A stretch of 64,000 nt of DNA, from assembly GCF_022376445.1 (NCBI RefSeq), contig NW_025955109.1, forward strand, positions 40,697 to 104,696, read 5' to 3'. The first letter of the stretch is position 1; every line of letters starts with the position of its first letter. The stretch is from Fomitopsis serialis. Taxonomy: Eukaryota > Basidiomycota > Agaricomycetes > Polyporales > Fomitopsidaceae. The notes beneath the pieces were generated by a model that worked only from the letters and a program-made list of their open reading frames with translations, was not told where the DNA came from and searched no databases. The position numbers and the translations under genes were made by a program. Positions 34,450 to 55,194 of this stretch are shown here, in pieces.

Positions 34450-36210
34450 TGTTTGCAAAAGTCTTGTCGCAGCGCCAAAACCACAAAAGGTTCGCACGAC
34501 GCGACCTCTGCGACCTCTTGCTCAGAATCACCGTTTCTCGCTCAATTTTCAACGTATCGGCTCGGCAACTACAGCGTTCGATTCGTCTTGGTGAGACGCA
34601 GCACCTGGTATGAAGAACATGGCGAACTTCGCGAAACTCAAAATCTCGATTTTCAGGTGCATGCGCAAAGGAGAACGGCGGCGGCGAGCGGAGGAGAGGT
34701 CAGAGAGCGTCGGGAATGGCTGGGATATGTCTGGTTGGGTAGTGTGCAGTGCTCAAAGATGTGATGGTGAGTTTTGACCGCTCCGATCTGTTGTACTCAC
34801 CTGCCCCCAGTTGCCTGCGAGGTCTTCGGCGTGAAACACGACATCTTGCTCAATTCTCAATGTATCCGCTCGGCAACTACAGCGTTCAAATCATCTCGCT
34901 GAGACGCAGCGCCTGGTATAGAGAACACGGCAAGATTCGTGAAACTCAAAATCTTGATTTTCGGGTGCACGCGAAAAGGAGAACAGCGGCGGCGAGCGGA
35001 GGAGAGGTCAGGGAGCTTCGGGAATGACCTGTGCCCTGACGACTTGAACAACAATATATTTCTGTTATGTAGCCTAGCTATTGCGTGACATGGCGATGGT
35101 CAACCTATATGTTTGCGCTGTTGAGAGAGAAAGCCCTGCGGTTACGTGTACGGCTGGGATTGCACCCAGCATAAGGATCGCTGCACAGCCGAGTCGGTGT
35201 TTGCAAGTTAAACTTGACACTGCACATACTCTACCCTACCGTACCACATTCACGCGTACACTCTACACACTCCTTCTATATTATATGGCAGATTAACGAA
35301 ACAAATCGAAGCGGAAGTCAGGGAGGTCACGCACATCTCGGAAGACTTCGATGTCCTCTCAGCCTCAGACCGCCCCGGACTCGCCGTTGCCATTGCCTCC
35401 GCCTCCCAAACCTTGTCCAGGGCATGCCTACAAAGGTGCTTCGAGGATTGGTGATGGCCAGGAGTCTGTGGCTCCCGAGAAAAATGAGCTGGGAATGTCA
35501 CTGGCAGTTGCCCCGGTTGCCGCACCATCACGGGAAGGTATCTCAGCGGTGCAAAATTGTGCTGCATACCTCTCGTGGATACTCGAACACAACTGTACAG
35601 GCCCAGGTGAGCTATGCAGACTACCGCCAAGCCTTTCTGCCGTACACTGCACTTGCAGTTGCCAACTTTTGTTGCTGCGCAGGCCGGCGAACGAGTGGGC
35701 CTACGAGGTCAAGAAGACCTTGTCCTTCTTGCTGTCTTCGATGCAGTGTACTGCAGCCTACTGAGAGGCATTGAAAGGCATAGAAATTGGGTAGATATGA
35801 TGAGAGCCGGGTGGGCTCTGCGTGTTTCGCGCCGAAGACCTCATAGGCGACTGGGCGCTGGTGAGTACGACAGAGCAAAGCAATGAAAACTCACAATCAC
35901 ATTGTTGGGCACTGCATGATACCCAACCAAACATGCCCCAGCCATTCCCGAAGCTCCCTGACCTCTCCTCCGCTTGCCGCCGCTGTTCTCCTTTTCGCGC
36001 GCACCCGAAAATCAAGATTTTGAGTTTCGCGAATCATGCCGTGTTCTCTATACCAGGTGCTGCGTCTCACCGAGGCGAATCGAACGCTGTAGTTACCGAG
36101 CCGATACATTGAGAATTGAGCGAGAAACAGCGATTCTGAGCAAGAGGTCGCAGAGGTCGCTTCGTGCGAACTTTTTTGATTTTGGCGCCGTGACAAGACT
36201 TTTGCAAACA
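34450..36210. mobile_element. Element with 390-bp inverted arms (unclassified DNA transposon or foldback)
   Basis: The arm at 34450-34840 reappears in reverse complement at 35821-36210. Both begin TGTTTGCAAAAGTCTTGTC, share GACCTCTTGCTCAGAATC, AACTACAGCGTTCGATTCG and an intron-like GTGAGTTTT..CAG, and end GAGGTCTTCGGCG..AAACACG. A third, direct partial copy sits at about 34844-35030 just inside the left arm. The inner 790 bp is unique. No flanking duplication is visible beside either outer end. No transposase is seen, so if mobile it would depend on another element; Mutator-like elements have arms of this length, but that is only a comparison. Confidence 0.65.
35351..35764 (+). CDS. Hypothetical short protein inside the inverted-repeat element
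   Basis: An open frame of 137 codons starting MSSQPQTAPDSPLPLPPPPK, located in the unique centre of the inverted-repeat element. It is Pro/Ser-rich first and Cys/Leu-rich later (AVHCTCSCQLLLLRRPANEW). I recognise nothing. It may be chance; its only support is position and length. Confidence 0.2.
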   Translation: MSSQPQTAPDSPLPLPPPPKPCPGHAYKGASRIGDGQESVAPEKNELGMSLAVAPVAAPSREGISAVQNCAAYLSWILEHNCTGPGELCRLPPSLSAVHCTCSCQLLLLRRPANEWAYEVKKTLSFLLSSMQCTAAY

Positions 36211-36614
36211 TAAGCCACACGCTCAACATTCAACGTTCAACGTTCAACGTTCATCCACCAATGTGGGTGCTTAGAACTTACTCCTACTCAACCCATGCGA
36301 GTCTGAAGGAATTCTCCAACCTCGGCTGTGTCGTGCCTGTGATGCCTCGACTCGCTCCTCAAGAAGCCATGTGTCGTGACGCAGGTGTTCTGACCGAGTG
36401 GAGGGGAAATAGGAAGGACGAGGAGGAGGCTGGGTGTGGAGACTCAAGAAGGTGAGGAGAGCTGGTGCATGCCAGTCCATGAATGCTCATGCATCCGTCC
36501 GCGTATACAGGCTAGCAGCAGGGCGGGAGGATGAGCGGGGACACGAGCACGCGGACAAGTGGGCAAGCGGTCAGGCGGTCGGCCAGGCGGTCAGGCAGGC
36601 GAAGGGAGCCCATT
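36211..36614. other. DNA between inverted-repeat element and KDZ transposon
   Basis: About 400 bp. It begins with a short tandem array of CAACGTT-like heptamers (36227-36252). The last 100 bp before the KDZ terminus are a degenerate GCG/AGCG/GGTCAGGCG-type repeat, similar in style to the DNA immediately right of the transposon at 54,030-54,120, as expected if the transposon landed in that repeat. Confidence 0.5.
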
Positions 36615-36648
36615 CAGCGGATTTGCCTATGACCATAGGCCAGCCGAC
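36615..36648 (+). repeat. Left terminal inverted repeat of the KDZ transposon
   Basis: Begins CAGCGG, then CCTATGACCATAGG and a CCGAC end. It matches the reverse complement of 53992-54026 with a few mismatches and one to two single-base gaps. The inner 14-mer is itself nearly palindromic. Confidence 0.7.
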
Positions 36649-37355
36649 TGGGAAAAAACCGAAGTGTCGTTGGACAACCGAGGCCGGCCGACGGCTGACG
36701 GTCTTTCGTGGGCCGACGGTCGTTTAGACGCATGAGCATTGGGTCGGCCGACGGGTCAGTAAACTACGCTAATCAAACAATACATTTCTTGTGCTATGGT
36801 TATCCGTGACACGACGTCGGATGGCTCAATGTGCATTGAGTACTCGAGTCAGCTTATTGAAGAGGCGTACAGACATACGGACGTACCCATTGTGCAATTG
36901 ATGCTCGGTTGACTCAATGAGCATTGAGTCCACCGAGCATCAATTCACCCAATGGTCATTGTCTCTACCGAGCATCGGTTTAACCAATGAACATTGGTAA
37001 ATCCGAGCTCGTTTGCCCCGACGCGCATAGGGCAACCGACGTCGGATGGCTACTCATGCCCAGCCAGGGCTTGTGGGATGTCCATCCAATGTCGGCCGCG
37101 TCTATGAGCATTCACGACCCGATCTCGGGTCCCTGAATGCCCATAGACACAGCCGATGCCCGCCTGCAGCGGTGAGAGCCGGTTTTGAAGAAACCGCCCG
37201 CTTTTCGAACATAAGCGCCTGGTTCAGATCCGATCGGGCGCCAGATCGACCAGCCGTTTCACGCCTCTTTTCGTCTCTCTCTGCTTCTCCTCCTCTCATC
37301 CTCTGCACTCGAAACCACCCCCACGTCTGCTCACACGATATACATTGGCCTCTGC
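36649..37355. other. Left subterminal region of the KDZ transposon
   Basis: About 700 bp without a gene. It is rich in short motifs in both orientations: GGCCGACGG/GGCCGACG (36,685-36,755), ACCGAGCATC or its complement at about 36,900, 36,937 and 36,976, and CAATG(A/T)(G/A)CATTG near 36,830, 36,925 and 36,988. Such subterminal repeats are typical transposase-binding sites of large DNA transposons; the promoter of the first gene must also lie here. Confidence 0.55.
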
Positions 37356-39113
37356 ATGTCTGAACCATCCACCCTCGACATACCGCGCGTAGTTCACGCC
37401 TCCAGGCGGCACACTCGCGCCGTGTCTGCGCCGGCCGCATTCGAGGTCTCTCAAGCCCGCTCTCCAGCGGCGACCGCGGACAAAACCCAACACAATCCGC
37501 CCGTGGCGGATTCCTCCAGCAACCAGACGGACGGGCTCGCTACACGTCGGGAGGACGGAGACGCGCCTACACGCGTCTCTTGGGAGCAAGAGACGTGCGT
37601 ACCCTTCCCAGGTACGTTTTTTCAATCTTCCGGCGATCTCTGCGTTCTGAACCAGTCCAGGCGCGTCGGACGCCATGCCCGAGCCAGCTTCCAACGTGTC
37701 TCAGCACGTTGGACACGCTGTGGAACGCGGTACATCCTTTTTTGACGGTTTCTCTGCGCTGCTGATCCTCCCTTCGCGTCTCCAAGGCGCCACCGGCCCA
37801 CAAACGCCTCTTCTACAGGCCGGGGGCCCTGCTCAGCATCCAGGTGAGTCCGTCCACGCGTCTGGCTCGCCCCGCTGTCGAACGTCCCGCCCACCAATGC
37901 TGCCAGCTCACCGCCAGCAGGCGGCAACGCTGCCGGTCCGTCGCGATGACGTGGCGGCGCCGCGCGCCGCTGCGCCTCTCTCTCGAGCGCAGAGCGAGCT
38001 CTGGGAAGGTACGTGCTACACCTTCCTTCATTCCTCCACCACCTTTGATGCACGGCCTCTTTCAGGCGGCAGTACACGTGTTGCTGCGGCAACATTGCCT
38101 GCAGCTGCGTCGCTAGACACAGTGCAGGCTGCGCTGACTGACGGTGAGTGCGGTTTCGATTGCGGCACTCCGTGCTCACTTCCGCCTTCTCAGCCTGCGG
38201 CAACGCTGCGCACGCGAGCCGTGGTTGCTCTGCGCCGGCAGCGCCCACTTTGCGTACCGCAGGTAAGTCGTTTCTGCAGGTGTTCTGCTTGTCACTGACG
38301 CGTCTTCTTCCTCTGCAGCGGGGCGCGGTGACGTGGCGTCTCCGCAAGTGTTTGCGCCGTACGCAGACCCCGTCGTCGCCTCTCGAGGTCGCAACTCTAC
38401 AGCGCCGCTCCCTACCACCGTTGTGCCACACCCGCCCGCCGCTGGACTGTCGACGGTGGGCGACGCAGAGCTGCGAGACCGGCTGGTTCCGCTGGGCGTA
38501 CTGCGGGCTGCAGCGGAGTCTTCTGCCTCCGCTGCGATTGGCGTGTCAAGCGGCCACGCTCCAGGTACGTAACGTACCTTGCGTTTTTACCGTTTCCTGC
38601 TGACTTGATCTCCCAGTCACTGCGGGCAACGAGCTGCCGCCACCGCCGTACTTGCCCCCTCCGTACGTGCGACACGTTCGTCGACCCGGCATCTTCCACA
38701 TGCCGCTTTACTTCCCGCCCATGCGCGACGTGGACAACGGTGGCGCCGCGCTGCACCGTGTGATGCCCGTCCTGACGCGGATTCAGGCTTGCATCGACGA
38801 TATGGAGCCTTATTTCCTGGGATCGACCGGTATCCCAGAGGCGCCTGGAAATCCCTGGTGAGTACCGTCTGCAATTCATTGGATCCTGCTCACCTCGAAT
38901 AGGGTTCGTCAGGAGTCGAATGTGGGGCACTTTGACTCCTTCGTTGTTGCCTGGAAGACGCTCTCCCGTGAGCAGGGTGAGGTATTTGCGTGGTTCATCG
39001 TCATTCCTGTCGATGATGAGGGACAGCGAGAATTGATTAACGCATATCTTCAAGAGGCATTCGAGGAGGAGCAGGACATCAGGGGAGTAGAGCAGGAGCA
39101 GGAGATAGAGTGA
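37356..39113 (+). CDS. KDZ cargo protein 1, Ala/Pro-rich, unknown function
   Basis: Hand splicing gives about nine exons: MSEPSTLDIPRVVHASRRHT, then CVPFPGASDAMPEPASNVSQ and further short exons, all with GT..AG introns of 50-60 bp. Three exons begin with almost the same DNA (GCGGCAAC(G/A)(C/T)TGCC-like, near 37918, 38084 and 38205), as if made by exon duplication. The last part is more ordered: ELPPPPYLPPPYVRHVRRPG, FHMPLYFPPMRDVDNGGAA, LTRIQACIDDMEPYFLGSTG, and a final acidic domain NVGHFDSFVVAWKTLSREQG with ELINAYLQEAFEEEQ, stop TGA. No known domain. It lies just inside the left end and 322 bp before the transposase start, same strand. Confidence 0.6.
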
Positions 39114-39434
39114 GGCGTACATTACATCGTACAATGTATTTCATCGACTCAAAGCATCATTTCGGTTGCATTAAACATATTCATATTCAAGTATGTATAG
39201 TGGATGTCCTCAGCTCCAGAAAAGAGAGGCGAGCTTGCTTCGCGCCAGTGCAAGCCCGAGTTTGAGAGGCGCATCGCCTCTCTGCTACGGGCTGTACTAC
39301 GCCTCTCGCCAGCGAACCAACGCTCGGTCTGCCAATACTCTTACAAGGCTCGAGTATCCAATCAGTTGCTGCCATGTAGATGTGATGATGCTCCGCTCGT
39401 ACACCCCAGAGCCTCAGTGCATTCTTCTCTCACC

Positions 39435-42400
39435 ATGGTGTCAAGAAAGTGGCGTAAGGTTGAGCTCTCCGTCGAGCCGAAGGCCGTGCGCACCGTCGTG
39501 ACGCAAACCTCGAAAGGCAAGAGATATCGTTTGGTCTCCGCTGAATTTGCGAAGCACAGAGAACCCGCTGTGTCCGATGCAGAGCCATCCGACCCGGGGC
39601 CATCACGGCCATCTAGACAGCTTGGAGAAACATCAAACGACATACCCGTCTTCGACTTTGGGGCTCCAGAGAATGCCCATTTGCTCAAAGGTCGTCCGAA
39701 GAAGCGAGCAAAGACGAAAGCATCCGGCTCCATAAGTGGCGTCATCGGACAGACTTTCTTCGAGCTCATTCATGTCCACCAGACCCAGGCTGATTTCATG
39801 CGCCAATGGCTTCCGCGGCGAGATGCATTTCTTCAACTCCTGGTCGATCTAGAGGGTCCACGGGAAAGGCGACAGTGCTCCGGGTGCAATGCGGAGTGGA
39901 GTCCTTGGCGGTGCATTGACTGCTTCGCTCGGCCGAGCTTTTGCACGGCTTGCTGCCTGAGTGAGCACAACCGAAATTACCTCCACCGGATTGAGAAGTG
40001 GATACCCGTGGACGGAACCAATCTCTCCAGCGGACCAGCACCCGAGGAACCCGAGGACAGCAGAAGCGACGCAGGAGAGTGGGAGGATGTCGAGAGCGAG
40101 ATGTTGGCAAGTAGAGCAGAGCCGTCAACTAACCAGGGACCCATACCCTATGAGGAAGGTATGTACCTTTATTTCACAATGCGTCTGCTGAGCTTGGCGT
40201 ATTAGGATATTTTCAGGCTAGCTCGCTCTACGCTGTGGGTGCACGCCTCTTCCTGGGTCATGGAGGCGCTCGATGCCGCGTTTTTGAACTCATCAGCGGA
40301 GATGACCTCTGCCAGAAGCTCACAGTTGTTGACGTGACTGGCGTGCACACAATTCGCGTAATGTTCTGTCAGTGCAACGAACCACCTGAAAAAAGCATTC
40401 AGCTTCTCTCCCTCGGTCTCTACCCCGCCTCCATGCTTGCGCCCCGGACCGCCTTTACCTTCCACGTATTGGACGATTTCTTGCTTGCCAACAAGATCTC
40501 TGGTATCGCCGCTCAAAGCTACTTTGAAAGACTACGTCGTCTCACCAACAACGCGTTCCCCACTCATGTCGCCGTAGGTCGTCTGCGTCACTAATCTTGC
40601 AGTGCTCTGATTGTGCACTAGGACCGATACCGAGAGCTCCTTCGAGCCAGTCGTCAATGGCGAAACCTCAAGTATAGGAAGTGGCATGGCTACGGTCATG
40701 GTCGAGGCACAGTAGGGCCTGGTGATCTCGCCTTTGGATGCGTCGCTTGTCCAAGGCCGGGTATAAACCTCAAAGACGACTGGCAGCAAGACCCCAACCA
40801 GTTTGTAATTCACCCCTGGAGACAGGCCGCTGGCTGACAGATTGAAGGTGGAAATTCACGCAAACATTCGTCATGGACGGAAATTTCAGCGCCGAGCATC
40901 TCAAGATGCGAAACCCTCGAGAAGATGTGTCTTTGGCTGATGGTCATGGCTTTATGGTCACCGACGACCCATACAAGCGCCATCTGAAAGAGGCGGTAGA
41001 CGATCGTGAGGTAGGCCGCTTCCGTTCAGTAGAGAGGCGCACACTGAGAGGCGGCAGAAATCGAGTTGTCACGCCCATCGAGCCGTAAGCCAAGCAAATG
41101 CGGACAGACACGATATGGAAGCCACTGGGATTGGTGCGGTAGCCTGCGGGCGGCACGGCTGTTTCGTGCCTCACGCTGTGGTTGACTTTCAGAAAGGCGA
41201 ACGGTCTGTCGTTCAGGGTCAGTGCGCTTCTTCGACTAAACTGTCACTCGCAGGCAAATGAACATGGACTACGCGCTGTCTCAGGCTCTTCGTTTCTATC
41301 AAGGCTTGGGGATATTCATCATAATGTATGACATCGCCTGTCAATACAGCAAGAAGGTGGTCGGACGGTTCACCAAGGCCGAGGAATATCTTCTATGGCC
41401 GATTCTCGCCCTAATTTACTGGGGCATCGGGCTGTTTCATATCCACGGGCATCAATGGGACTGCTTGCCGAAGTACTCCCCAGACTTTATACCGGGAGCC
41501 GGTCGAGTAGACGGGGAGGTGATCGAGACACTGTGGTCACCTCTGAATCGCATATCGGGAAGCACAAGGGCGATGTCAACCTCCCATCGAAAAGAGGTCA
41601 TTGACGACCACATGAACGATGCTAATTGGAGGAAGACTGTTGGCATGGGTAAGTCATGAGAAGCGGACGAGAACGGCTGCTAACTGGGACACAGTGAAAA
41701 TGCTTTCACGGCGATACAAGGAGGCATCGACGGAGCGTGTAATATCAAAGGACGTGCTGAAAAAGCTGGAGGAATCCAGTGATCCAGAGCGGTTGCGAGA
41801 GTGGAAGGCCATCGAGGCAAGGGCTCGAGCGAAGAGGCGTACCGATTTGAGCGTGATGGAGCCGTATGAGATCACACAAGAGAAAGGTATGACAAGCAAT
41901 CCACATTACTCCGCTGTAGCTGATATTTGTTCAGCACCCAGCAAACGAGAGATTCAGCTTTTGCTGGAAAAGGAGGAAGGACGGCTCAAGCAAGAGACCG
42001 GCCTCGCCTCTTGGCTTGCGGAAGGGCTTTCGCTTCAGGAACAACAGTAAGAGACATACTAAGCGTAGGTCCTTCCCAGTTAACAAATGCCCAGGGTAGC
42101 AGTCTCTGGACTGGCCAGGCGTCAGAAGAAGGACCCGCTCCTTGCCTCACAGCTGGAGCTGGTCGGCAAGAGGAACCGGCTGCAGAGAGGCGTAGATCGC
42201 TTCTCTGCAAAAGCCAGCGCCTTTTGGACCGCTGAAGACTCCGAAGATCAGGACATAATTTGGCCCGGCGACGACATTGAAGGACTTCCTCCGCCCTATA
42301 CTGGCGATGATTGGGAAGATATCGACGGCGATCCTGACGTTGCTGATTCCATTGTCGTTATTCACGAGGCGGAGGACATCATTCAGCCTGAGGCGGTTGC

Positions 42401-43309
42401 GCTACCTCTTCCCTCAACTTGGGGAATGCAGAAACTACGCGACCTTAAAAAAACAAGGCTGGGCGAGCAGGAACTCCGCCTGCGGGAAGGGCAGGCGAAT
42501 GATGCTCTTCACCGCCTGCGAATGGCGATCGGACTGAAGTCGGTAGTCTTTCGAACTAATGTCCGTGACGGCGATGGTCAGCATGCGAAGACTAGGGCAT
42601 GGACGCAGATTCAAGCCATTGCAAGGACCGCGACCGAACAGGCGCGTCTGTACTCTCTGGCAAGAAACACAATGAAGCGCCTAGTCTTAACTAACCAAGA
42701 GTCCTTGGAGATGGAGAGACGTTTCCAGGAAGAGAGGCGTGCTGCGAAGCAAAAGGACCAAGCCCCGACCTCACCAGCCGCACCAAGTGCGCCTGCCTCT
42801 TCATCCGCGTCTACCGTTCAGCGAGACGCCTTTGACACATGGGTTCGGACTCTTCCAGAAGTAATGCAGCGCTATCGACCCCTCTACAAGGAAGATCTGA
42901 ACGCTACTACGCATCTTGTCGACAATGCAGAGCGGAACTCCCGCCACAAGGTCCTGTCCTGGATATGGTCGGTGGACGTTGGTTTGGATACAGAGAACTC
43001 GGATTGGCTGCTGGAAAGTACGTATCTGCGCGCCCATACCTTTCAATAACTGATCTTGCTTCAGTTCATAGGGTGAACTGGCTTCGTGAAAAGGCGAAGT
43101 CTGATCGCTGGAACGAGCAATCAGCAATAGTGGGAGAGGAGATGAAACAGACCGTTCGCTCCTTCGAGTTCAGAGCTACTCAGTGGAAAGGCCGACAAGT
43201 GGGCACGGCAGGACAGCAGTCTTATGCACTTCGACAGGCGGCACTCTGGCAAAGTCTAGCTGATGATGCGCGAGCGGCATTCACCAAGCTCCTGCCGAGC
43301 GGCCTGTAG
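39435..43309 (+). CDS. KDZ transposase
   Basis: RNase H-fold DDE transposase of the KDZ group. I chose the ATG of MVSRKWRKVELSVEPKAVRT; an upstream in-frame ATG at 39204 adds 77 unlikely residues. In order: a basic Pro-rich lead; the CxC2 cysteine cluster (CSGCNAEWSPWRCIDCFARP, CTACCLSEHN); LTVVDVTGVHTIRVMFCQC; the first catalytic Asp in VMDGNFSAEHLKMRNPRED (40873 on); GIGAVACGRHGCFVPHAVVD; the second Asp in IMYDIACQYSKK (near 41330); GLFHIHGHQWDCLPKYSP; the Glu in GAGRVDGEVIETLWSPLN (near 41517); GSTRAMSTSHRKEVIDDHMN; then a long helical C-terminus ending LLPSGL. All seven or so introns splice in frame, one with acceptor TTGAAG. No stop or frameshift. Its stop codon is 49 bp from the TET/JBP stop on the other strand. 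Confidence 0.92.
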
Positions 43310-43358
43310 TATTTCAGTATCGCTTCTATTACATAGACGCCATTTGTCGTCACGCTTC

Positions 43359-44981
43359 CTACGCATACAGTCCTTTCATGATGCCCCCTATAGTACTCCA
43401 CGAAATCTCTCGCACACCTGCGTTTGTGAATACGCGGTCCTTCTCGAACCAGGCGACCGTTGTTCGATCACCGACAAACTCGCCGACAGAATGCCGGAGC
43501 ATGTGTCCAGCGATCCCAATGACCCCGCCTGGCCTCTGGTTGATTTTAACAGGCGCGTTGTGGATCTGAAATTCCCCGCCTGTGTAATCCCCCACGGTCG
43601 CCAACACATCGAAGGCGGCATAAGGCGTCCCGCGGTCAATATGGTCGGGGCTAATTCGATTCGAGATGAGCTGGAAACCTGTGAAGCAAGACCCCCACTT
43701 AGAAAGGACGTTGGCGAGGTCGGGTTTTTTCGACAGCTTGGCCCTACACTCCATCCCGAGCTCGAATTGGTTGGGGTGCATGATCGAAATGACCGCGGAC
43801 ATAAGCGCATTTACCTCCCTCATCTCCTGGAGGAATTGGGAGCCGGACGCCTGTCGTTTCCCAGTCAGAGTGGCGGATGTTGTCGGATCTTGACCCTTGG
43901 TGTTGTTCAAGCATCGGAGATGTAGAAGGCGGGGAAGAGGCGTACCTTAGGCATCTTCGGATACCACGCCGGTGCGAATGTAGGTGTGCCCGCCGGCGGG
44001 CCTGTTCCCACCACTTCACGGAAGTTCTCTTCATGCTCCCGCCAGCTCGGCGTTGGAATAAGATTCGCGGACTTGGGTTTGTTGTCGCGCCATTGACCCG
44101 GGATCCGCAGCATCGACTCGATCATTTTCTCCTACACCGGATTCAGCCGTAGACAGGAGATGAAGCAGATTCACAAACCTGTCGTTCACGCGATAAAAGG
44201 CCGGGAATATACCAGAGAAGAACATTCTCGTGCTTGTCGACAAGGACAGTCGGAAGCGTCCAAGGCGTGCCGTACGTCTCGAACTTTGCACTGTGCGCGT
44301 CGATTTGGTTGTCCTTCGCCATTTTGTTAGGATTGTCGCTCAGCGCCGTCATTCGACGGCAATATCGCACGGCATCGGCGTCCACTGTTTCTGCCATTAA
44401 AGGTCAGTGAGATCGTCGAATTGATTTCATCAATACTCACCGATGTTGCCCATAGCTTCGGCGATGAGGACTGCCGCGACCGCCACTTCGAAATTGAAAG
44501 TTGCTGAGAGTCTGCTTCTCCCAGGCGGGTCTAACGATGGCATTGGCGGTGCCGGTTTCCCATTCCTCTCAATGTTCATGCGAATCGCGTGCATCGTCTC
44601 ATGTCTAAGCACCGCAGCGGTGATTTCGACCAGCTCCGTCTCTTTGAGCATGTGTTGTTTAGACCGTGTCCCCACGAAGACTCTTGCCTCACCTGTTAAC
44701 TCAGGAGATGCACCGGGCTCCATTGCGAAGGGCTGACCAGTCGATCGAGTCGCGGAGGGAGGGTAAGCGCAGTCTTGGCCGATCGGGCGCGATCGCGGTG
44801 AAACTGGGCGCGATCGCGGTGAAACCGATCGCCTGGTCTGGATCCATCCACTGATGCCGAAATGAAAGGGCGTATCGCGTGACACCATGTGTGTTGCCGT
44901 GGGCAGCCCGTCTGCGTGGCAGAGCACGTTCCGCCGGGCCGAGGCAATCTCCAGATATATGCGCTGCGCAGCCCTGCGCAT
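43359..44981 (-). CDS. TET/JBP-family 2-oxoglutarate/Fe(II) dioxygenase
   Basis: Enzyme of the family that oxidises 5-methylcytosine or thymine in DNA, expected in the nucleus. The C-terminal double-stranded beta-helix shows FTGFQLISNRISPDHIDRGT with the iron-binding HxD (codons at 43641 and 43635), YAAFDVLATVGDYTGGEFQI, the PGG turn, the distal His in GHMLRHSVGEFVGDR (near 43491), and an Arg in DRTTVAWFEKDRV suited to 2-oxoglutarate. Upstream exons encode LPTVLVDKHENVLLWYIPG, MLRIPGQWRDNKPKSANLIP, WYPKMPK and an N-terminal part ending FEVAVAAVLIAEAMGNIG. All catalytic residues I can recognise are present, so an active enzyme is likely. The start is uncertain; an upstream ATG at 45017 is in another frame. 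Convergent with the transposase, divergent from the HMG-like gene, so its expression may be coupled to both. Confidence 0.85.
44785..44826 (-). repeat. 21-bp tandem duplication in the TET/JBP N-terminus
   Basis: GGGCGCGATCGCGGTGAAAC starts at 44785 and again at 44806, a 21-bp (seven-codon) direct repeat. On the coding strand it yields SPRSRPV followed by SPRSRPI. Each unit contains the palindrome GCGATCGC. Confidence 0.8.
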
Positions 44982-45172
44982 ATCGGCTGTCGGACAGAAC
45001 GTCGGGTAACATACAAACGGAGTGATTGCGGCAGCTCAGTAAAATGACAGAATGATTATTCCGCGTCTCCTCCCGCTGATGGCGGTCGAGAAGTGACGGC
45101 TGTTGTGAAGAGTACTTGTTACCGTCCTTCGCCAGCAAGTTCGCCGCCTCTCGTCTTCCAAGTCCAGTAGCC

Positions 45173-48100
45173 ATGAAGGCGACCGACGTCGATTTCAGCG
45201 AGCTCCAGCTGGGCGTCCTTGAGGGCTTCACGAATGCCTTTCGACTCGCCAAAGAGGCGGAGAAGGACAATGTCGTGGAAGAAGCCGTCGGTGAACTGCG
45301 CAAAATGGCCCTCGGTGCGCTAGCAAGCCTCGCCCCGAAAGACCAGTCAGAGGTAACCGCGCCATCGCTGGTAAGCTCTAGCGCATCTTATTTGCATTTT
45401 CAGGTAGTCCGCAAATGGCTCGTCAAGAATTCTCAGAAAAAGAAGAAGAAGAAAGGCGGTTCACGGGTGAACATCCGAGGCTGCGACCTCTGGCTGAAAG
45501 AAAACAAGGACGATGTACACGGCCGAGCATACGATGAAGGAACAAGCGGACCGCTCCCAAAGTACACTCTCGCTCGCTGGGGGGCCTGGCATGAGTTGTC
45601 GGACGAGGAGAAGGCAGAGTATCGGAAGAGGGGCGAGGCATTGAGGGCGCTGGTAGACGAGGAAGGAGCACAGATTACTCCGCCTTCAAAGCCGTCGGCG
45701 TGAGTCTCCCCGTCATGCGCCTCTTCCACGGAGTCTCAGCGTACATTTAGGTCGCTAGGCAATGCGGTCGACAAAAAGGTCCTCGCCTTCGCGAGAAAGA
45801 TGCTCATCGAGGAAGGCGTGTACATGACGGTTTTGTGGGGATCATTAAGCACAGACCAAGGGCCGGTGCTTGGATTGTGCGCAGCGTGTCTCCATGCCAC
45901 CGCGTCATACGCTTACACTCCATGACAGGTCGGACCACAGCCTGATTAAAGGAGTCAAGGAGACGTTTTCAGACCGGATGAAGAAGCCCGACTGGGACCC
46001 CGCTCGCCTGTGGTACGACTGGAGCAACTTTCTGAAGGCGATCTATCAAGACATACCGGCTGTCACCGTCAAGACTCTCAAGGAGAGCAAGGCCCAACGG
46101 AAGACCGCCTTCGGTTCCGTGCTCGAGCTCGATGAGGCGACCAGCCTACCGACAATCCCAGACACCTCTGCGCTCAATGCCTCGAAGGGAAAGACGGTGC
46201 AGTGGTGGCAACACGCTATCAGGGAGTTCCTGACGGTGCACTATGGTGCGTCCTGTACTCGACGACAGGAAACAATAAACTTACCATTCCTCGAAGCCGC
46301 TGCCTCCAATGGGAAGAAGGCCGCAGTTCCATACGCGAGGCTGAAGTCCCAAGGGTCACCGAAGTGCCTCGATCGTCAGTACTGGCTCCACGACATCGAC
46401 TTCGAGGACCCCTCGAAGATCAAGAAGGGGAACTGCATTCGTCTCATGCAGTTCTGGAGGGAGCTGCAGGAGGGCAAGGACGGTACGACGTCGTTCAGGT
46501 TCAGGGGCTTCCTCGACGAGGTTGACGGGGACTGGGAATTGTTGCCTGCGGAGTATGAAGAACACCAGGCGCGATGGACCGCAGACGCGGCGGAGCGAGA
46601 GGCGGAGCTGGAAAGGGAAGCTGCGCGGAGGACGGAGGGCGGAGAGGGAGGGCGAGGGTCATCTGAGGACGCTGTCGCGCAGGAAGGCGTTGGCGGCCAG
46701 AGTAGCGTGACAAGTCAGAAAAGTTAGTATGCTCCTTAATTGATGCACGAATGGCGCTGACGGTCTGACAGAATCGAAGCCAAAGGCCGTGCGCAAGAAG
46801 CCCGCTCTGTCCCGAAAGGCGAAAGGAAAGCGCAGGGCACGGACAGCGTCACCCAGTGACTCGGGTTCTGACACGGACGAAGAGAAATGGAAGAGGATGG
46901 TTGATGGAGCCTCCGGCGACCAGGCATCGGATGAGGAGCGTAGAGGTGACGAGGAGGACCGGATGAGCAGCGGCGCTCAGGATCTGGCTGATTCCGACGA
47001 CAGCACCGTAATGGACTCGCATGACCAGCTGGAGGCCTGGGCGGAGGTGGCCAAGGGTCGCTATGTCGGAAAGGCGCCTCTGGATGTTTCGAGCTGGAAG
47101 AAGCGTGTGTTGTACTTGGCGGGCATGAACTTCGACAAGCGGTATCAGGCTGCGATACTGAACTACTACGCTGCAGTCGAGAGGTATTCCAGGAGCTCTA
47201 ATCGGCTTAACAGTTGGTTGCCCCAGCTGCTGGAAGCCGTACCTTGGGCGACTTGGACGTGGGGCGAGCCTACTCTGCCTGAGGAAGTCCACAGGAACCC
47301 GGACGGCCTGGAACCGCTTCTCCGTATTCTCGAGCAGAAGCCGTGGATGCGCGGAGAGGTCGCGGCGTTGAAGGTTGTGGAGCAGGTGCTTCTGGCCGTG
47401 GGCCTTTCGCTGCGAGATATTGCGGACAGCCATTTTAGCAACGACCCTGACGATGAGGCTCCGGTCGGCATTCCTGCCTTTGTGAACGACAGCAAGATTG
47501 GTTTCGCTACTAGCGAGAGGCTGCTTGCCGTCATCGAATCCCTGGGAGACGCGATCATCATTGACGGCGAGCCAGGGTCCAGCAGCTTTGATCAAGACGT
47601 CCAGTCTGCATTGGCCTCGACAGGCGTTAAACCGCCGGAGAGGCGGGCGCAGGACGAATCAGCTGCGCCAGCCCCGCCTCCTGCACAAGACGTACCGTCT
47701 ACATCAGAATCGGAAATATTCCGTGCTCAGTCTCCACTCCGAGCTCAAGCACTTCCCCCACACGATGGCCCTCTCAATGATCCGCCCGACATGCCGATCG
47801 CTGAGAAGCCTCCTGTGCCCGACAGGGAGGTGGAGGCCCCCGGTCCTCAGGTTGCACCGTCGGCTCCAGATAATGGCAGTGAGCCTGGAGTATTTGCCGC
47901 GCCTGCTGCAGCGGGGCAGGCAGAAAAGACGCATGGCACACCCTCATATGCTGTGCCGGAGGAAGAACGGCGTGCGGGCCAGCCTCCTGTTCCGCCCTCT
48001 GCACCGAACTCAAACGACGCTCGCACATTCCAATCTGCGGACAACACGCGTGAGGAGCCTGCGTCTGCCCCAGACCATGTAGACATTGGAGAGGGACCAT

Positions 48101-48441
48101 CGGATGGTGCCGCAGACAGCCTCGGCGACTCGTCTCGCAAGCGAAAGCGCTGGCTGTCGCAGGCCAAAGAAGCGGGCGGTTTGTCGGAAGAGGCGAGCAG
48201 CTTGTTGCAGCAAGCGGGCGGCTTGTCGCAAGAAGCGAGCGGTCTGTCAGAAGAGGCGAGCGGTTTGTCCCGAGCGGGCGGAAGTTCATCTGATAAGCCG
48301 CCTTCAAAGAGGCGAAAGTCTGTGCCGCTCCCTGAGCCCATTCTGAACGGGAGGAGATCCAATAGGTTGAAGGAGGGAGGTGAGGGGCTTCGGGAGATGC
48401 AGCGAGCGAAGACGCTTCTCGCTGCTGGTCGGGGACGCTGA
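45173..48441 (+). CDS. KDZ accessory protein with divergent HMG-like domain
   Basis: Spliced protein of roughly 950 residues. Order: a helical N-terminus (MKATDVDFSELQLGVLEGFT); a Lys run (SQKKKKKKGGSRVNIRG) leading into an HMG-like domain, CDLWLKENKDDVHGRAYDEG, YTLARWGAWHELSDEEKAEY; a conserved-looking middle (GLSDHSLIKGVKETFSDRMK, WYDWSNFLKAIYQDIP, KTVQWWQHAIREFL, CLDRQYWLHDIDFEDPSKIK); basic and acidic patches (KKPALSRKAKGKRR, SDSGSDTDEE); a folded part ASSWKKRVLYLAGMNF-like with NRLNSWLPQLLEAVPWATWT; a Pro-rich linker; heptad repeats and a basic tail (RKRKRWL, KRRKSVPLPEPILNGRRS). Introns restore frame without repair. KDZ elements are reported to encode a divergent HMG protein; I equate this gene with it. 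It probably binds DNA, and its start lies about 190 bp from the proposed TET/JBP start in divergent orientation. Confidence 0.75.
48160..48288 (+). repeat. 21-bp minisatellite coding heptads in the HMG-like protein
   Basis: About six imperfect 21-bp units encode the 7-residue pattern GGLSEEA, SSLLQQA, GGLSQEA, SGLSEEA, SGLSRAG. The pattern could form a short amphipathic helix. Confidence 0.8.
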
Positions 48442-48568
48442 CGTAGAGTCGTTCGCATGTCACACTGCAGGAGTATCCCAGAATATAATTTTGCTCGTGC
48501 GTCATTACATTGAGAATACATGTTCGTACAGGGAATTGGAGAGGTACATTACTTCGATACATGCATGT

Positions 48569-51500
48569 TCACTCCGACAGGTCCATACCCAGCTCGCCGC
48601 CTGACTCAACCGGCTGCTCACCTCCGAGATCTTTCGCCGAAACGTCGCGCCCATCGTCGTTTTCGCTCTGGTCTCCTCCACCGTTGTCAGCGGCGCCCAC
48701 GCCTTTGTCAGTCGCCTCTACGCCGAGCTGGTCGGACTCCTCGACCGTGCGTGCTTCGATGGACTGAGACCGAGAGGTTTGGGGTGTCTGATCGAATGTG
48801 GGCGAGTCGGCCTGTTGCTCCGGCTTGGATGCTCTCAACTCGGCGTCTGAGGGTGATGCCGAGCTCGCACGTTCGGACGAGACCAGCGACCCGTAGCGAG
48901 CGAGAGCGGCAAAGGTGGGAGGCGTCACTCGGGGCGCTGAACGCCGAGAAAGACGGCTTTGGTCGCCGGAGCCGGGGGTTCGACCGGGGAGACGGCGCAG
49001 GCAGGGGAACATTGTCGCCTTCGGGTACAGGCTGGAGCTCACCCATAGCGGGTGGACTGGGCACGGCTTGGCGGGATGTGGTGGCGGCCCACGGAGGTTG
49101 GCGACGCGGAGAGGCGGGAAAGAAGGGCCAAAGTGTGGCTGTGAGGGACCGGCAGGCGGCGCGCGGAGAGGCGCAACAGGCCCGCTAGTCTCCCAAAAGC
49201 GAAGGCTGGCGGACCCTGCTGAGCTTCGACAGTCTGCATACGCAACACTTCCATCTCTGCACGCATGCGGCCTTCGATCTCCTCAGTGCGGCGGATCGTC
49301 GCCTGCATCCCCTGCTGGACCGCGTTAGCAGTGACTTCGCTCCAGCGCCGAGCATTTTCTGCCTCTCTCAGGCGCGTCTCCACGGAGACTTGAGACCGGG
49401 CCAAGTCGTCCAGGCGGGCGTGGATCTCGTCGAACCTCTGAGCCGTGCTCTCGGCCGTAGTTCGAACTTCGCTCCGAAGTTCTCGAAGCTCCATCGTAAA
49501 CGCGTCCACTTCGGGCGGACGTCCTTTCAAGATCTCCGCGAGCTTCGCCCTGATTTCGTTGTTTTCAACGACCTGGAAGGCGTACAGGCCGGTCCACACG
49601 CCATGAGCGTGCCAAAGAGCGTCTCGTAGGCCCGTCGTAACCCCTAAGTAAGTCGGCCATCGAGACGACCTGCGAGTTGAGCTGTTCGACGGAGACAGGC
49701 TGCCCGGTGCTTTGAGGCAGCAGCGTCCAGGGCAACGCGGCTTTGTCGAACGGAGACATGCCAAGAGACGGCCCAGCGTTGGAGTCAGCAGTGTGCGAGC
49801 GGGAAGGTCCTGGCGGTGGTGGCAACGGCGGCATCGGAGCATCAGGCGACCCTTCCTCGTCCAATGAGCGAGCCCGTTCGTGAGTGGGCGGGACGGCCTC
49901 GTCGTCAGAAATGGATATGACTGAGTCGCGGTCCATCTCACGGAAGCTCTTCAGCGGCTTCGCTGGCCGCTTCCCTGCGGCGCGGGCGGAGAGCGTCTCT
50001 GTCTTCGAGAAGTTCAGGCGTACGGCCAGACTGCAGAGCAGCAGAAGGGCACTCACCAAAACTTCGCCTGTAGGGAGGGCGGCCTCTTCCGGTTCCGGCT
50101 CGATCTTCACTTCAGCCATCTGGACATCGTCGTCCGCGGTCTCCGATTCTGGCGTTGGACGCTGTTCGACGGCTGGCGGACTCTTCTGCTGAGCCTGCTT
50201 CTTCTTCTTCCCAGACCCGGAGACTTGCCGATCCTGGTCGCTGTCCGTGTCCCCGTCGCCTTTCTTCGGAAGGTAAGGCGGATCGGCGAGCCGACCCTTC
50301 AGCTTCGCAATCTTACGCCTCTCTATCCAGTCCACCACCGCAGCGGAGACTTCGTCCTTCGTGTCATCCCAGGTGTCCAGGTCAGCTACCCACTGACCCT
50401 TCGCACCGTTCCAAATTGGAACTTCGGGATAGACCGCCCCCGAGGCCTTAAGGACCCGTACCATCTTCCGCCACTTGATTGCGGCTACACCGGCAACAGC
50501 GTTCTTGAAGACCGAGCCGTCGATCATGTGCCGAGGGACCAGCGAGCACGGCACCTTCCCTATCTTACAGGCCGTGCACCGAGCCACGATTACCGTCCCA
50601 CTCGGGGCTTTCTTGCTCTTCTCCACCACGAAGAGGCACTTCTTACCGAGGTGGACGCAACGGTCGCACTCAACAGGCTGACTGAGTCAGTTTGCGGTCC
50701 TGCCGTAGAAGCGCACTGCTCACCGGAATGATCACGTCGCCAGCCCGCCCATTCTTTTCCGCCTCTATCTCAGCCTTGTTCACCTCCACCTCATCTACCT
50801 CTACTGTCGGCGCCTTTCGCCTTGATCCAGCGGACGCAGGTGGAACCTCGTCACGCTCTTTACGAATAGACGAAGGGCCCGCAGATTTGCCCTTTGACAG
50901 CGGCGCCTTGACCGGCGGCTTCACCGCGCCCGTCTTCATAACCGTCTTTCCAGCTGAGCCACCGACGTCCTTTGCGGGCTGCAGACTTGTCTTGTCATCG
51001 GATTTGGACTTCGACCGAGTCCGTAAGGCTTGCGGCGAGGACGCGCCTGACCTCCTCCGCCCAGTCTTGGAGGGGCCCGCCTCTTCCTCCTCGGGCTCGG
51101 CGTCTTCAGCGCGAGCCTCTTTCGACAAGGCCGCGTCGTCTTTGCCCGGCGGCGGGAGTAGCTCCTCCTCCTCAGAGTCCGAGACGAACTCCGGGGACTT
51201 GATCTTGGTCTTCCTGGTGTTCCTGGTGTTTCTCGCACCTTGCTTCGGGGCAGGAGCCTTCTCGGGAGTCGATCGTCGCCGCTTCTTCGCCTGCTCCTCG
51301 TCTTCGGTGTTCTTCTCGGGAACAGGATCTAAGATCCGTGCGCGCTTCTTCGTGCGGGATCCCTCGCCCGCTTGTCAGGAAAAGCGCGTGAGATCGCTTT
51401 CGGAAGCACGCTTAACCGCTTACCATTCGAGGGCCCAGGAGTGTCGCGATTGTTCGCCTCTGTTGTGGCGTCAGTGCATGAGACGTCTTTCGAGCACAGA

Positions 51501-52000
51501 CGCCCACCTTGCCTCCACCAGCCGACAGAGCTGGCGGCTTCTCTTGAATAGTCGAGCTCTTGAATGAGCTCCCTGGGGATCAACGGTAGGGGCTCGTTCT
51601 TGGGCTGGGACTTGGACTTCGCGACTATCTCCGAAACACCGTCCAGGGTCTTGAAAGGCCAGCCAAGTAGGCCATCGCATGCAGCCGCTAGGACGTACGG
51701 GAGCCGTATTCTATTTGTGTCGGCCGCTTCCGCCATGGACGGCCAGTAACGGTACTGCGGGCATTGGATCAGTATGTCGAAAGTGATCGCCGCGCCTGTA
51801 CCTACAAGTTCGGCGTGGAGAGCGACTTCCGCGACACGGCGCTCCTTGGCTGGCGCCTCGAGCGCCGCTTGGGCGCGGCCTGCGAGCATCAGTACGTCTT
51901 GCATCGTAATTGGCTGGGGAAAAGCGTCGGGTATTTGAGCGCTCGAGGGGTTGACGGGCGCGCCGGCGGCAAAGGCGCGAGTAAAGGCGTCCCCAGCCAT
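48569..52000 (-). CDS. KDZ cargo protein with Zn2Cys6-like cluster and coiled coil
   Basis: Large multi-exon gene, function unknown. N-terminus: MAGDAFTRAFAAGAPVNPSS, ITMQDVLMLAGRAQAALEAP and an ordered part (PQYRYWPSMAEAADTNRIRL, YVLAAACDGLLGWPFKTLDG). After a GT..AG intron comes a basic, Ser/Glu-rich disordered region (KKRARILDPVPEKN and many KSK stretches). Then a cysteine cluster CDRCVHLGKKC, a 19-residue gap, and CTACKIGKVPC (about 50,560-50,680), i.e. CX2CX6CX19CX2CX6C, followed by IKWRKMVRVLKASGAVYPEV and WVADLDTWDDTKDEVSAAVV. Towards the C-terminus a coiled coil around 49,200-49,500 (ELRELRSEVRTTAESTAQRF, EIHARLDDLARSQVSVETRL), then an acidic tail ending GMDLSE. The frame near 48,930 needs one base in a C run. 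The zinc cluster suggests DNA binding or a partner role for transposition. Confidence 0.6.
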
Positions 52001-52279
52001 CGCTTAAAGGGAGGCTGGAAGGCGAGGCAGCAGGGTCGAGTGGCAGCGTGAGTCTCTAAGTCAAGAGTGCCACGTAGCACGAGCGCCGCCGCCGTCGCAA
52101 CGCGTCGGTCATGTGACACCATCCCACGCCACATATATGCGGCCGCAAGCGCCCGTAACCGTCTTGGCCAGCGACCACAACCATCAGTTCCAGCCACCTC
52201 AAGGTAAGCTTTCGTTTCACCGGAAAGACCATTTGTATGACCTTCTGAACTTACGCACACACAGGGAAATCTGAGCAAC
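52001..52279. promoter_or_regulatory. Divergent promoter between zinc-cluster and chromodomain genes
   Basis: 279 bp separate the two start codons inside the transposon, so one compact region must serve both. The TATA-like CATATATG near 52132 reads in both directions. An intron in the 5' UTR of the chromodomain gene is possible (AAGGTAAGCTTTCG near 52201 to CACACAG near 52264). Confidence 0.45.
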
Positions 52280-53391
52280 ATGCCTCCAAGTCGCAGTGGA
52301 AACGAAAGGCGTTCACAGAGAAGCGGTAAGCAGCGGTCCAAGCTGTGCGAGAGAAAAGCTGATGCCTTTCAGTCCTTGACGGCCCGGTAGAGGATCCCCT
52401 GCGTCCGTGGGGGCTTGCTCAGCCTCTTTCGCCGCCCAGAGCGATGGTCCAGCCTCTCCCACGTCCCGCCATCCTGCTCTCGCCTCTCGCTCGCCCGTTC
52501 ACGGCATCGCCTCTGCGCGCACCGCGCGGCGTGTGTGCGCCTCTTCCGCGCCCGGCTGCTCTCGCGCCTCTGCCCCGGCCTCAACAGCTGGCGTCGCCGT
52601 TGTATTCGTTCCATACGTTGGCCGACGCTCTTCCGCGCCCTTCCGCGCCTGCCCTGCCCCTGGCTCGACCCCCCGCGCCCGTGCGGCCCCTGGCTCGACC
52701 CACCGCGCCATTCCAACCTATGCCGCAGGTCCAAGTCCCCACGCCGCCGCCGTCGCCTGACAACATCGTCACGCCTCTTGGCCTGCCGATTCAGCTCCTC
52801 GCACCGCCTGGTGCCGCTGCCATGAGGCGTCGGGTCATAGAACCGCATGAGTCCGCGGTGCTCGCCAATCCCCTCGAGCTGCCGCCTGTCGAAAGCGACC
52901 GGGCCCCGACCACTCCTCGGTCCAGAAGGCTCGCGTCACTCAGGCCGCGTAAGCCCAGGCACATATTGGTGAGTATGTATCCGTTTTGCTACTCAACTCT
53001 GAGCTGAAGTGTCTGTGTCTTTCCAGATGCGCCTTGACGACGGCGGCTACTTGGAGGCATTTGCTTTGGGGGACCCCGCTAAAGGTATGCCGTCTCTTCC
53101 TCGACTCTAACTCGACCCTCATAAGCACCCGCAGGTCCATACTACTGCCAGTCTGACTCCTTCGAAGACGGTCCGGCGCCCTTAAACCAGGGCCCTATTT
53201 TTCAGGTGGGCAAAAACCTGCTTTGGGACGTCGAGGCCATCGTCGGCCATCGGGTTGTCAGGCGCGGCAACAAGCGTACGTTCAAAATCCTGGTGAAATG
53301 GGCGGGCTGGGTCGACCCGACGTGGGTCCCTCTTTCGTACGTAGCAAAGCTCCCGTTGTTTGAAGAGTACTGGCAGGGGAGGGGGGCTTAG
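52280..53391 (+). CDS. KDZ cargo chromodomain protein
   Basis: Spliced protein of about 310 residues. It begins MPPSRSGNERRSQRSVLDGP, followed by a Pro/Leu-rich disordered region (PLARPPAPVRPLARPTAPFQ). A short acidic region (MRLDDGGYLEAFALGDPAKG, SFEDGPAPLNQGP) leads to a C-terminal chromodomain: LWDVEAIVGHRVVRRGNKRT, FKILVKWAGWVDPTWVPLSY, VAKLPLFEEYWQGRG, stop TAG. The Y/W-V-E-x-I start, the KILVKWxGW core and the TWxP segment are the chromodomain hallmarks, including two aromatic cage positions. Three introns all splice in frame. Chromodomains bind methylated histone tails, so the product could tether the element or its proteins to silent chromatin. It is unlike the gypsy chromodomains nearby and is not fused to an integrase. 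Confidence 0.8.
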
Positions 53392-53991
53392 TACGTGTAC
53401 CTAGTACCTACGATCTGTCTGGCCATTAGGTGTGATTCAATGTATCTCGCTGCTCGACGTCTCGCCTCTTGAGGGACGCTGTACACGGTAGAGTAAGTGC
53501 GTCATGGGCGGGCTTGATTAGCGCGATCAAGCTCGAAAAGGGGTGCACCGTCTTTAGAAAGGCGTGCCGGTCGGTAAGCGCACGCCTCTTCGACGTCCCG
53601 CCTTGTGCGGACCAGACGATGAGCAGACAACTTGCGTTACTAAGTCGACCAGCACATGTTGTGTCCATATGCCACCGGAGGGCCGTGAACCAACCCATAC
53701 TTACATCGGCTGGAGCAATGCTCCCAGCCGACCGTTGTACAACCAAACCAACCGCCTTTCCATTCAACTGACCCTACTTTACTCAACCGATGCCACTATC
53801 AATCGACCGACCGTACTTTGACTCAACTGACCCAGTCACCAATCAGCCGACGGTCTCAGAGAAGCCAACCCCATCCGTCAGTCCACACCAGCCGACCGAT
53901 GGGGTTCGTACACGGCCGATACACGGCTGTTGAATACTCATTGACCGTCGGCCGCCGTCGGCCCATCCTATACCATAGGGCTTTTCGACCT
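53392..53991. other. Right subterminal region of the KDZ transposon
   Basis: 600 bp with no gene beyond the chromodomain stop. From 53,690 to 53,960 it is dense in short CAACTGACCC, CAACCGAC, TCGACCGACC and CAGCCGAC motifs, similar in style to the GGCCGACGG motifs at the left end read in reverse. These are probable transposase-binding repeats. Confidence 0.5.
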
Positions 53992-54026
53992 GTCGGTTAT
54001 CCTATGGTCATAGGGTAGAGCCGCTG
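53992..54026 (-). repeat. Right terminal inverted repeat of the KDZ transposon
   Basis: Ends with CCGCTG, the complement of the CAGCGG start at the left end, preceded by CCTATGGTCATAGG, the complement of the left CCTATGACCATAGG. Similarity stops beyond 54026. Confidence 0.7.
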
Positions 54027-54285
54027 CCTGGTGTGGCGAAGGAGCAGGCAGACGAGCGCATGAGCGGACGAGCAGGTGAGTGAGCAAGCGGGTGGGTGCG
54101 CGAGCCGGCGGTCTGATCAGGACAGGGCACGGTGTCGTGCAGCAAGACACACGACGGCCGCGAGCGCGCTGGGCCAATGCCCAGCACGCAGACACAGTCC
54201 ACGAATGCGGGACTGGCAAGCCGGCGGGTGAGCGGTTGGTGAAAGGGTGGGCCCAGGGGGAGCTGGCAAGACCCTGCTGTGCATA
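54027..54285. repeat. GC-rich degenerate repeat right of the KDZ transposon
   Basis: DNA of the AGCG/GGCGAGCGG type. A segment at about 54170-54250 (GGGCCAATGCCC, ACACAGTCCACGAATGCG) is repeated in altered form at about 54685-54760 (GGGCCAGTGCCC, ACACAGCCGACGAACGCG), on the far side of the monooxygenase fragment, so the two copies flank it as direct repeats. Confidence 0.55.
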
Positions 54286-54625: not shown

Positions 54626-55194
54626 CCGGAACGACATCCACCGTAGGGCCAGGACGCCCACAACACACGCCGATTACGAGCACGTAGGGCCAGTGCCCCA
54701 CGTGCAAACACAGCCGACGAACGCGCTGCGGATACGAGCACAACAACGAGCTGGTGGGAGGGGCATGCGGACGGTGCGTGTGGCCGGGAAATGAGCACAC
54801 GCAAGCGAGCAAATGCTCCCGTCCACAGGTGAAGGGCTGGCAGGGACACGCGAGCGGATGGGAGAATGCGCGAGCGGCTGGGGAGAACGCGCGAGCGGGA
54901 GCATCAGCGAGCAGGGAGTATGGCGAGTGGGGAGGACAGAGAGAACAGCCCGTGCGGGTGCAGGCAACAAGCCCAAACCCATGCCGGTACCACCGAGGTA
55001 AGCTAACCCGCGGTTCACCGCCGACAGTGACCCCCCTTGCCCGTACTCCCTCGCCCGACGGTCGCACACTTACTCGTCTACCCACCCATGCGCCCGCCCT
55101 CGGCTTTACGCGCCCGCCCTCAGCTCATCACCCCCTCGCTCGTCCACCTGGCTCGTCTGCCCGACTTGTCCGCCCGCTTCGCTTGTGCATTCCC
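54626..55194. repeat. GC-rich repeat between monooxygenase fragment and gypsy element
   Basis: Contains the second copy of the flanking repeat (54685-54760) and GCGAGCGG-type low-complexity DNA to about 54,960, then Pro/Arg-coding GC-rich DNA up to the abrupt start of gypsy sequence. A long open frame crosses it into the gypsy polyprotein, but this part has no gypsy similarity and should not be counted as protein. Confidence 0.5.

Follow-up and report, generated by a model that had tools for sequence, protein, structure and literature searches.

Among described transposons, the closest counterparts of the element analyzed here are the TET-bearing Kyakuja of Agaricomycetes, which, as described in the text of Kojima 2025 (PMC12730594), generate a 7-bp target-site duplication (TSD), have CA...TG ends without terminal inverted repeats (TIRs), and are proposed to escape silencing by methylation. 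KDZ-domain transposases with a CxC cysteine cluster are also encoded by Zisupton elements and by Cryptococcus KDZ1-3; KDZ1, as presented in PMC12810828, is ~11 kb long, with 241-bp TIRs, 8-bp TSDs, and a cluster of the CxC1 type. Here, we report a computational analysis of a 64,000-nucleotide stretch of the Fomitopsis serialis genome (NCBI RefSeq assembly GCF_022376445.1, contig NW_025955109.1, positions 40,697 to 104,696 of the forward strand; hereafter, the window), in which, with little room for doubt, positions 36606-54035 are a single KDZ element. We read it as a complete cut-and-paste KDZ DNA transposon, similar to the TET-bearing Kyakuja, whose cargo would counter silencing, and assign this statement as a whole a probability of roughly 60%. 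An initial annotation, made from the letters of the window alone, had already proposed one complete KDZ element of ~17.4 kb, and the TSD, the related ends, both breaks, and the sites without the insert, all described below, agree with that proposal.

The window corresponds to C56:40697-104696 in a genome of 66.2 Mb and 806 contigs, to which the C-numbers used throughout refer. The inserted element is a single unit of 17,430 bp, flanked by exactly matching copies of the heptamer GCGAAGG at 36599..36605 and 54036..54042 (neither assigned to a strand). Given the GC-rich, repetitive sequence on either side, such a 7-mer match would be expected by chance with a probability of ~1e-3 (within 100 bp) or 8e-5 (within 1.5 kb). 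The left terminus (36606..36665, plus strand) begins 5'-GAGCCCATTCAGCGG..., and the right terminus (53976..54035, minus strand) finishes ...CGCTGCCTGGTGTG-3'. The left break is marked by a second copy elsewhere on this contig (from C56:4622), whose match to the window starts only at base 36606; the right break is marked by CGCTGCCTGGTGTG, which has its last base at 54035 and recurs exactly at 14 genome sites, the window counted (13 others), and its reversed control at none. Directly beyond the last G, the sequence differs at the 12 related end loci compared, among which those on C589, C288, and C31 have a common flank and may represent one event, leaving 10 distinct flanks. The two termini are imperfect inverted relatives: when the left 60 bp are aligned with the right 60 bp in reverse complement, the score is 15, compared with a best of 1 among 2000 shuffles and 7 among 3000 random 60-mers from the window, and an inverted 33-nt pair at the ends is 79% complementary. 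Related inverted termini had been recognized from the start; their placement at 36615 and 54026 was 9 bp too short on each side and is replaced by 36606, where the match to the second copy begins, and 54035, up to which the end loci agree. An 8-bp TSD (GGCGAAGG), the length known from Zisupton, is a possible reading that arises if the last G lies outside the element; the 7-bp length is favored because this G is kept at 12/12 related end loci.

Both subterminal regions (36606..37355 and 53392..54035, no strand assigned) are rich in the motif GCCGAC, which was chosen after a scan of 6- and 7-mers and occurs at 8.0 per kb on the left and 7.8 per kb on the right versus 0.9 inside. Two relatives, C370 and C523, have it at 6.2 per kb in their right ends, and the left end of the second copy reaches 21.7; because those ends are related to the ends in the window, this density is not independent proof.

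All gene models were obtained with our own splicing script from sequence alone, without RNA support. The KDZ transposase gene (39435..43309, plus strand; 10 exons, 1140 amino acids (aa)), recognized by Pfam profiles and motifs, encodes an N-terminal CxC2 cysteine cluster (E 3e-25) and a KDZ domain (PF18758, E 3e-53, profile positions 3-217 of 217). The three acidic catalytic positions claimed for this protein have their counterparts in the motifs DGNF (40876-40887), YDIACQY (41327-41347), and GEVIETLW (41513-41536), all on the plus strand and present in the model, where the choice of the acidic residues that are catalytic is our assumption. According to PMC7641404, CxC2 likewise precedes the intact KDZ elements found in Pleurotus ostreatus. 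Tail to tail with the transposase gene, with 49 bp between the two stops, lies a TET/JBP oxygenase gene (43359..44651, minus strand; 4 exons, 364 aa).

This spacing bears on the notion that two elements abut here, one comprising the transposase and an open reading frame (ORF) to its left, the other the TET, HMG-like, zinc-cluster, and chromodomain genes, with outer ends alike by chance. Such a composite would fit the cargo sets without a detected transposase at C523, C390, C674, and C235 and the KDZ gene without TET at C5. The TSD and the related ends, however, enclose the whole segment, and C28 and C265 keep the KDZ C-terminus beside TET, arranged as in the window. We consider two elements highly improbable, and as the principal interpretation they are rejected on account of the TSD and of the mere 49 bp that separate KDZ from TET.

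The Tet_JBP profile matches a single exon of the oxygenase gene with E 7e-17 and the spliced model with E 5e-15, and at E 0.01 the relatives found in the PDB were two CcTET sequences only (E 8e-21). In an alignment with CcTET of Coprinopsis cinerea (PDB 7vpn, 7w5p, 8jkk), the HxD region (43643-43608), the distal His (43499-43485), and the Arg (43469-43449), all encoded on the minus strand, are kept, as is the equivalent of Asp337; CcTET has Gly at position 331, whereas the window protein has Thr. The HxD..H and Arg signature on which the dioxygenase had first been named is complete in our model. According to PMC11040006, Asp337 of CcTET is required for oxidation of 5-methylcytosine (5mC), and Gly331 gives room for N6-methyladenine (6mA). 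We predict that the window protein acts on 5mC and that its activity on 6mA is doubtful, because the Asp337 equivalent is kept and Thr replaces Gly331. For the AG-type TET of Kyakuja, Gly or Ser is reported at this position, in contrast to the Thr seen here; in its HxD and its counterpart of Asp337, the window protein agrees with that type.

The rightmost gene (52444..53391, plus strand; 3 exons, 279 aa), supported by a profile of relatives and a structure model, encodes a chromodomain protein, with the motifs LLWDVEAI (53218-53241), KWAGW (53296-53310), and TWVP (53320-53331) in the last exon, also on the plus strand. The Pfam match (E 5e-4) is under the cutoff; a profile built from three relatives matches PDB chromodomains from E 3.6e-8 (cpSRP43, Swi6, and Chp1). 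In the predicted structure, sheet and helix follow one another as in a chromodomain, and most of its fold matches, at modest scores, are to chromo and chromoshadow domains. Aromatic residues occupy the three cage positions, which we presume to correspond to those of HP1, in 3/3 chromodomains compared. Profile, fold order, and aromatic cage agree in identifying the chromodomain protein that had been proposed, and the combination of transposase, DNA-base oxidase, and chromatin reader suggested for one element is found between the shared ends.

Together, these genes suggest how the element might operate. The transposase would bind the GCCGAC-rich ends and move the unit; the chromodomain protein may bind methylated histone H3 at silenced copies and recruit TET there, where TET would oxidize 5mC; and the zinc-cluster and HMG-like proteins could serve as DNA-binding partners. 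As a set, the cargo would keep the element expressible, and self-protection from silencing appears the likeliest cargo role. The VANC-type proteins encoded by Vandal/MuDR transposons of plants, to which Kojima 2025 (PMC12730594) refers, embody a like idea, namely element-encoded proteins acting against the silencing of their own element; the superfamily and the proteins differ, and the likeness is an analogy only. With regard to why many mushroom transposons carry TET, an element that pairs TET with a likely reader of histone marks allows the idea of self-protection to be tested one gene at a time, and a unit with defined ends, TSD, and subterminal motif can serve transposition assays.

Chromodomains of some Gypsy integrases direct insertion into heterochromatin or repeats. 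The main rival to anti-silencing starts from the same element and holds that the chromodomain and zinc-cluster proteins mainly steer insertions into such regions, with TET opening the target or having a side function. The element does lie in repeat-rich sequence, beside a Gypsy ORF with a chromodomain of its own, and the aromatic cage of the internal chromodomain is kept, as steering would predict; the chromodomain is, however, a separate protein, not joined to the transposase. We regard steering as unlikely and retain anti-silencing as the preferred role.

The remaining cargo is less readily classified. The HMG-like gene (45173..48441, plus strand; ~1017-1034 aa, with a further intron likely at 45353-45403 from comparison with C265) has relatives on C265, C779, and C54. 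Its HMG_box matches (E 0.011 and 0.045) are suggestive of the protein class first proposed, but both are under the cutoff, and the predicted structure (predicted local distance difference test, pLDDT, 45.7) is too weak to use. The zinc-cluster gene (48569..52000, minus strand; ~1009 aa, C-terminal introns uncertain) encodes the motif CX2CX6C-X19-CX2CX6C (50668-50636 and 50578-50546, minus strand; 19-residue linker), which we compared with what we take to be the Zn2Cys6 binuclear-cluster consensus, CX2CX6C...CX2CX6C. The zinc-cluster protein of the initial annotation has this motif, which is kept in the relative on C370, but no Pfam match. Neither the zinc-cluster core nor the HMG-like core matched the protein database at E 0.001; this database may hold few fungi, so the result is no sign of rarity. 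As for the uncharacterized protein listed in the initial annotation, a six-exon model of 497 aa can be built for the ORF at 37356..39113 (plus strand), but it is weak as a gene; the ORF weakly matches (~27%) ORFs that adjoin the right end of related elements.

Constraint was estimated as the ratio of change at the first two codon positions to change at the third, a rough measure, position 3 being near saturation in most pairs. The ratios, given for each gene with the best-covered relative first, were 0.33 (C370) and 0.55 (C779) for the chromodomain gene; 0.44 (C5), 0.59 (C28), and 0.55 (second copy, with 3 stops) for KDZ; 0.49 (C265) and 0.60 (C370) for the HMG-like gene; 0.54 (C265), 0.64 (C28), and 0.59 (C390) for TET; and 0.64 (C370) for the zinc-cluster gene. 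By this measure, these genes are constrained as proteins between diverged families. The ORF at 37356..39113 shows no constraint (0.90, second copy), which, along with the transposases on C5, C785, and C457 that have no TET nearby among the matches listed, would be expected if the cargo consisted of passengers or decaying captures and only the ends and the transposase mattered. That is improbable in view of the protein-level constraint on TET, HMG-like, zinc-cluster, and chromodomain genes and their partial order kept in diverged families.

This order can be followed at other loci, for which the match lists of cargo genes are lower bounds. C370 carries the HMG-like C-terminus, the zinc-cluster gene, the chromodomain gene, and the right end, and C265 a C-terminal KDZ stub followed by TET, HMG-like, and zinc-cluster genes, both ordered as in the window; C265 has no chromodomain match among those listed and no further KDZ sequence in 3 kb on the KDZ side. 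HMG-like, zinc-cluster, and chromodomain genes are found on C779, and the first two on C54. In a sister family, to judge from sequence comparison, the cargo genes moved together, because at C523 and C390 the chromodomain, zinc-cluster, and TET genes sit ~4.2, 7.0, and 10.8 kb from the same right end with different flanks; the TET loci of C523, C390, and C674 are identical over 3324 bp, and that of C235 is 99.8% identical. The joint mobilization first envisaged is therefore reflected in a partial cargo order that recurs at related loci, but not in any listed locus with six genes. Genome-wide, 48 TET matches were merged manually into 38 loci outside the window and 135 KDZ matches into 76; for 27/38 TET loci, a KDZ locus is no more than 10 kb away, with ~2.4% expected by chance, and among the other 11, C265 and C369 show a KDZ piece in the locus sequence. 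A tentative extension, which we think possible rather than probable, is that selection acts on the module itself: a portable reader-eraser set, in which the chromodomain would find H3-methylated copies and TET would oxidize their DNA methylation, aided by two DNA-binding proteins, the whole being retained together despite deep divergence, even in dispersed copies in which no KDZ gene was found.

Insertion was further examined with an empty-site query consisting of the two flanks joined with a single TSD copy; it yielded 85 matches, 10 of which cross the junction by coordinates, and 40/156 candidates were scored. The best are on C804 (84%) and C78 (75%), both of which align to the flanks through a left arm of ~63-72 bp only, in GC-rich repeats; the C804 arm scores 34 versus a best of 15 among 333 other 63-mers from the flanks. 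These related sites without the insert support insertion, short of proof. The search for other copies and empty sites that had been suggested thus uncovered related insert-free sites, but no complete second copy of the element was found in the genome. The copy at C56:4622 is disrupted, 94% identical over the left 230 bp and 89% over the next 3 kb, and no left-end relatives beyond the two C56 copies are among the genome matches listed. Recent movement of the 36606-54035 copy, which had been surmised, is not borne out by this comparison; recent spread is visible in the related family, in pairs 95-100% identical at different sites. There is no CpG depletion of the kind left by mutation resembling RIP (repeat-induced point mutation), the observed/expected ratio being 1.05 within the element versus 1.03 for the remainder of the window; the undepleted CpG content and the open frames are consistent with an element free of mutational wear and give no date.

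Several observations weigh against the interpretation of the locus as a complete, Kyakuja-like, anti-silencing transposon. The insert-free sites are related repeats with a short left arm, not an allelic site, and no other locus among the matches listed has all six genes. No KDZ or HMG-like gene is among the matches listed on C523, C390, C674, and C235, and the closest transposases, on C5, C785, and C457, have no TET within 10 kb among the matches listed (for C5, the first 10 kb were also inspected). Finally, the left end begins with GA, not CA, the right end being TG.

The comparison with Kyakuja can now be drawn. Like the TET-bearing Kyakuja, as described in the text of PMC12730594, the window element has a KDZ transposase, a TET resembling the AG type, a 7-bp TSD, and a TG right end; unlike them, it has imperfect inverted ends as well as the GA start. 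Because the CA left end and the lack of TIRs are not found here, we file it as a KDZ element that appears Kyakuja-like, not as Kyakuja. Relative to that text, it adds chromodomain, zinc-cluster, and HMG-like genes; chromodomain, HMG, and zinc have 0 mentions in the main text of Kojima 2025 (PMC12730594; the supplement was outside the search). The Cryptococcus KDZ elements have CxC1 versus CxC2 in the window, and a dioxygenase, a chromodomain, and HMG are unmentioned in the text of PMC12810828 consulted. The KDZ-TET linkage in basidiomycetes, which the initial annotation treated as known, is indeed already published (Kojima 2025, PMC12730594). Chromodomain and zinc-cluster cargo kept across families looks new, and could already stand in Iyer 2014, Repbase, or the supplement of Kojima 2025. 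Iyer et al. in 2014 reportedly found TET/JBP genes beside KDZ transposases in basidiomycetes, and may already describe extra cargo.

Several further observations concern the related loci. TET-KDZ spacings across the genome fall into two classes, ~1.8-2.0 kb and ~3.6-4.4 kb, with one at 8.7 kb, which suggests at least two further TET-bearing KDZ families. On their TET side, C523, C390, C674, and C235 bear a nested DUF6589 element, just past which the C523 and C390 contigs end. It was considered as the source of a replacement transposase at these loci and rejected, the DUF6589 protein belonging to a distinct element, ~5.5 kb long and nested there, whose inverted repeats measure ~135 bp (L068:826-3000, C523:241898-247429; also C390, C235, and C674). 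The same element stands at C556:285278-290822, without TET, zinc-cluster, chromodomain, or HMG-like genes among the matches listed. DUF6589 may be an unrecognized transposase; a literature search for it gave no paper. C790 and C589 were dismissed as full-length relatives, as they have only ~1.7 kb by the right end in common and no TET, HMG-like, zinc-cluster, or chromodomain gene in 9-10 kb. A block of ~1.7 kb (L034:4926-6654, L035:3764-5504), 95-99.9% identical among dispersed loci, combines an ORF weakly like that at 37356..39113 (~27%) with the shared right end and is possibly a short derivative, either non-autonomous or truncated.

Within the left subterminal region, window positions 36896-36945 form an almost perfect palindrome (96%), with a 24-bp arm on either side of a 2-nt gap, likewise self-complementary in the second copy and possibly a regulatory site. 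Just left of the element, 34450-36210 contains long inverted arms (356 nt at 87% and 40 nt at 90%) plus related direct repeats. Just to its right, the Gypsy-type ORF occupies 54688-57315; it encodes RNase H, an integrase, and a chromodomain, and is distinct from the chromodomain gene inside the element.

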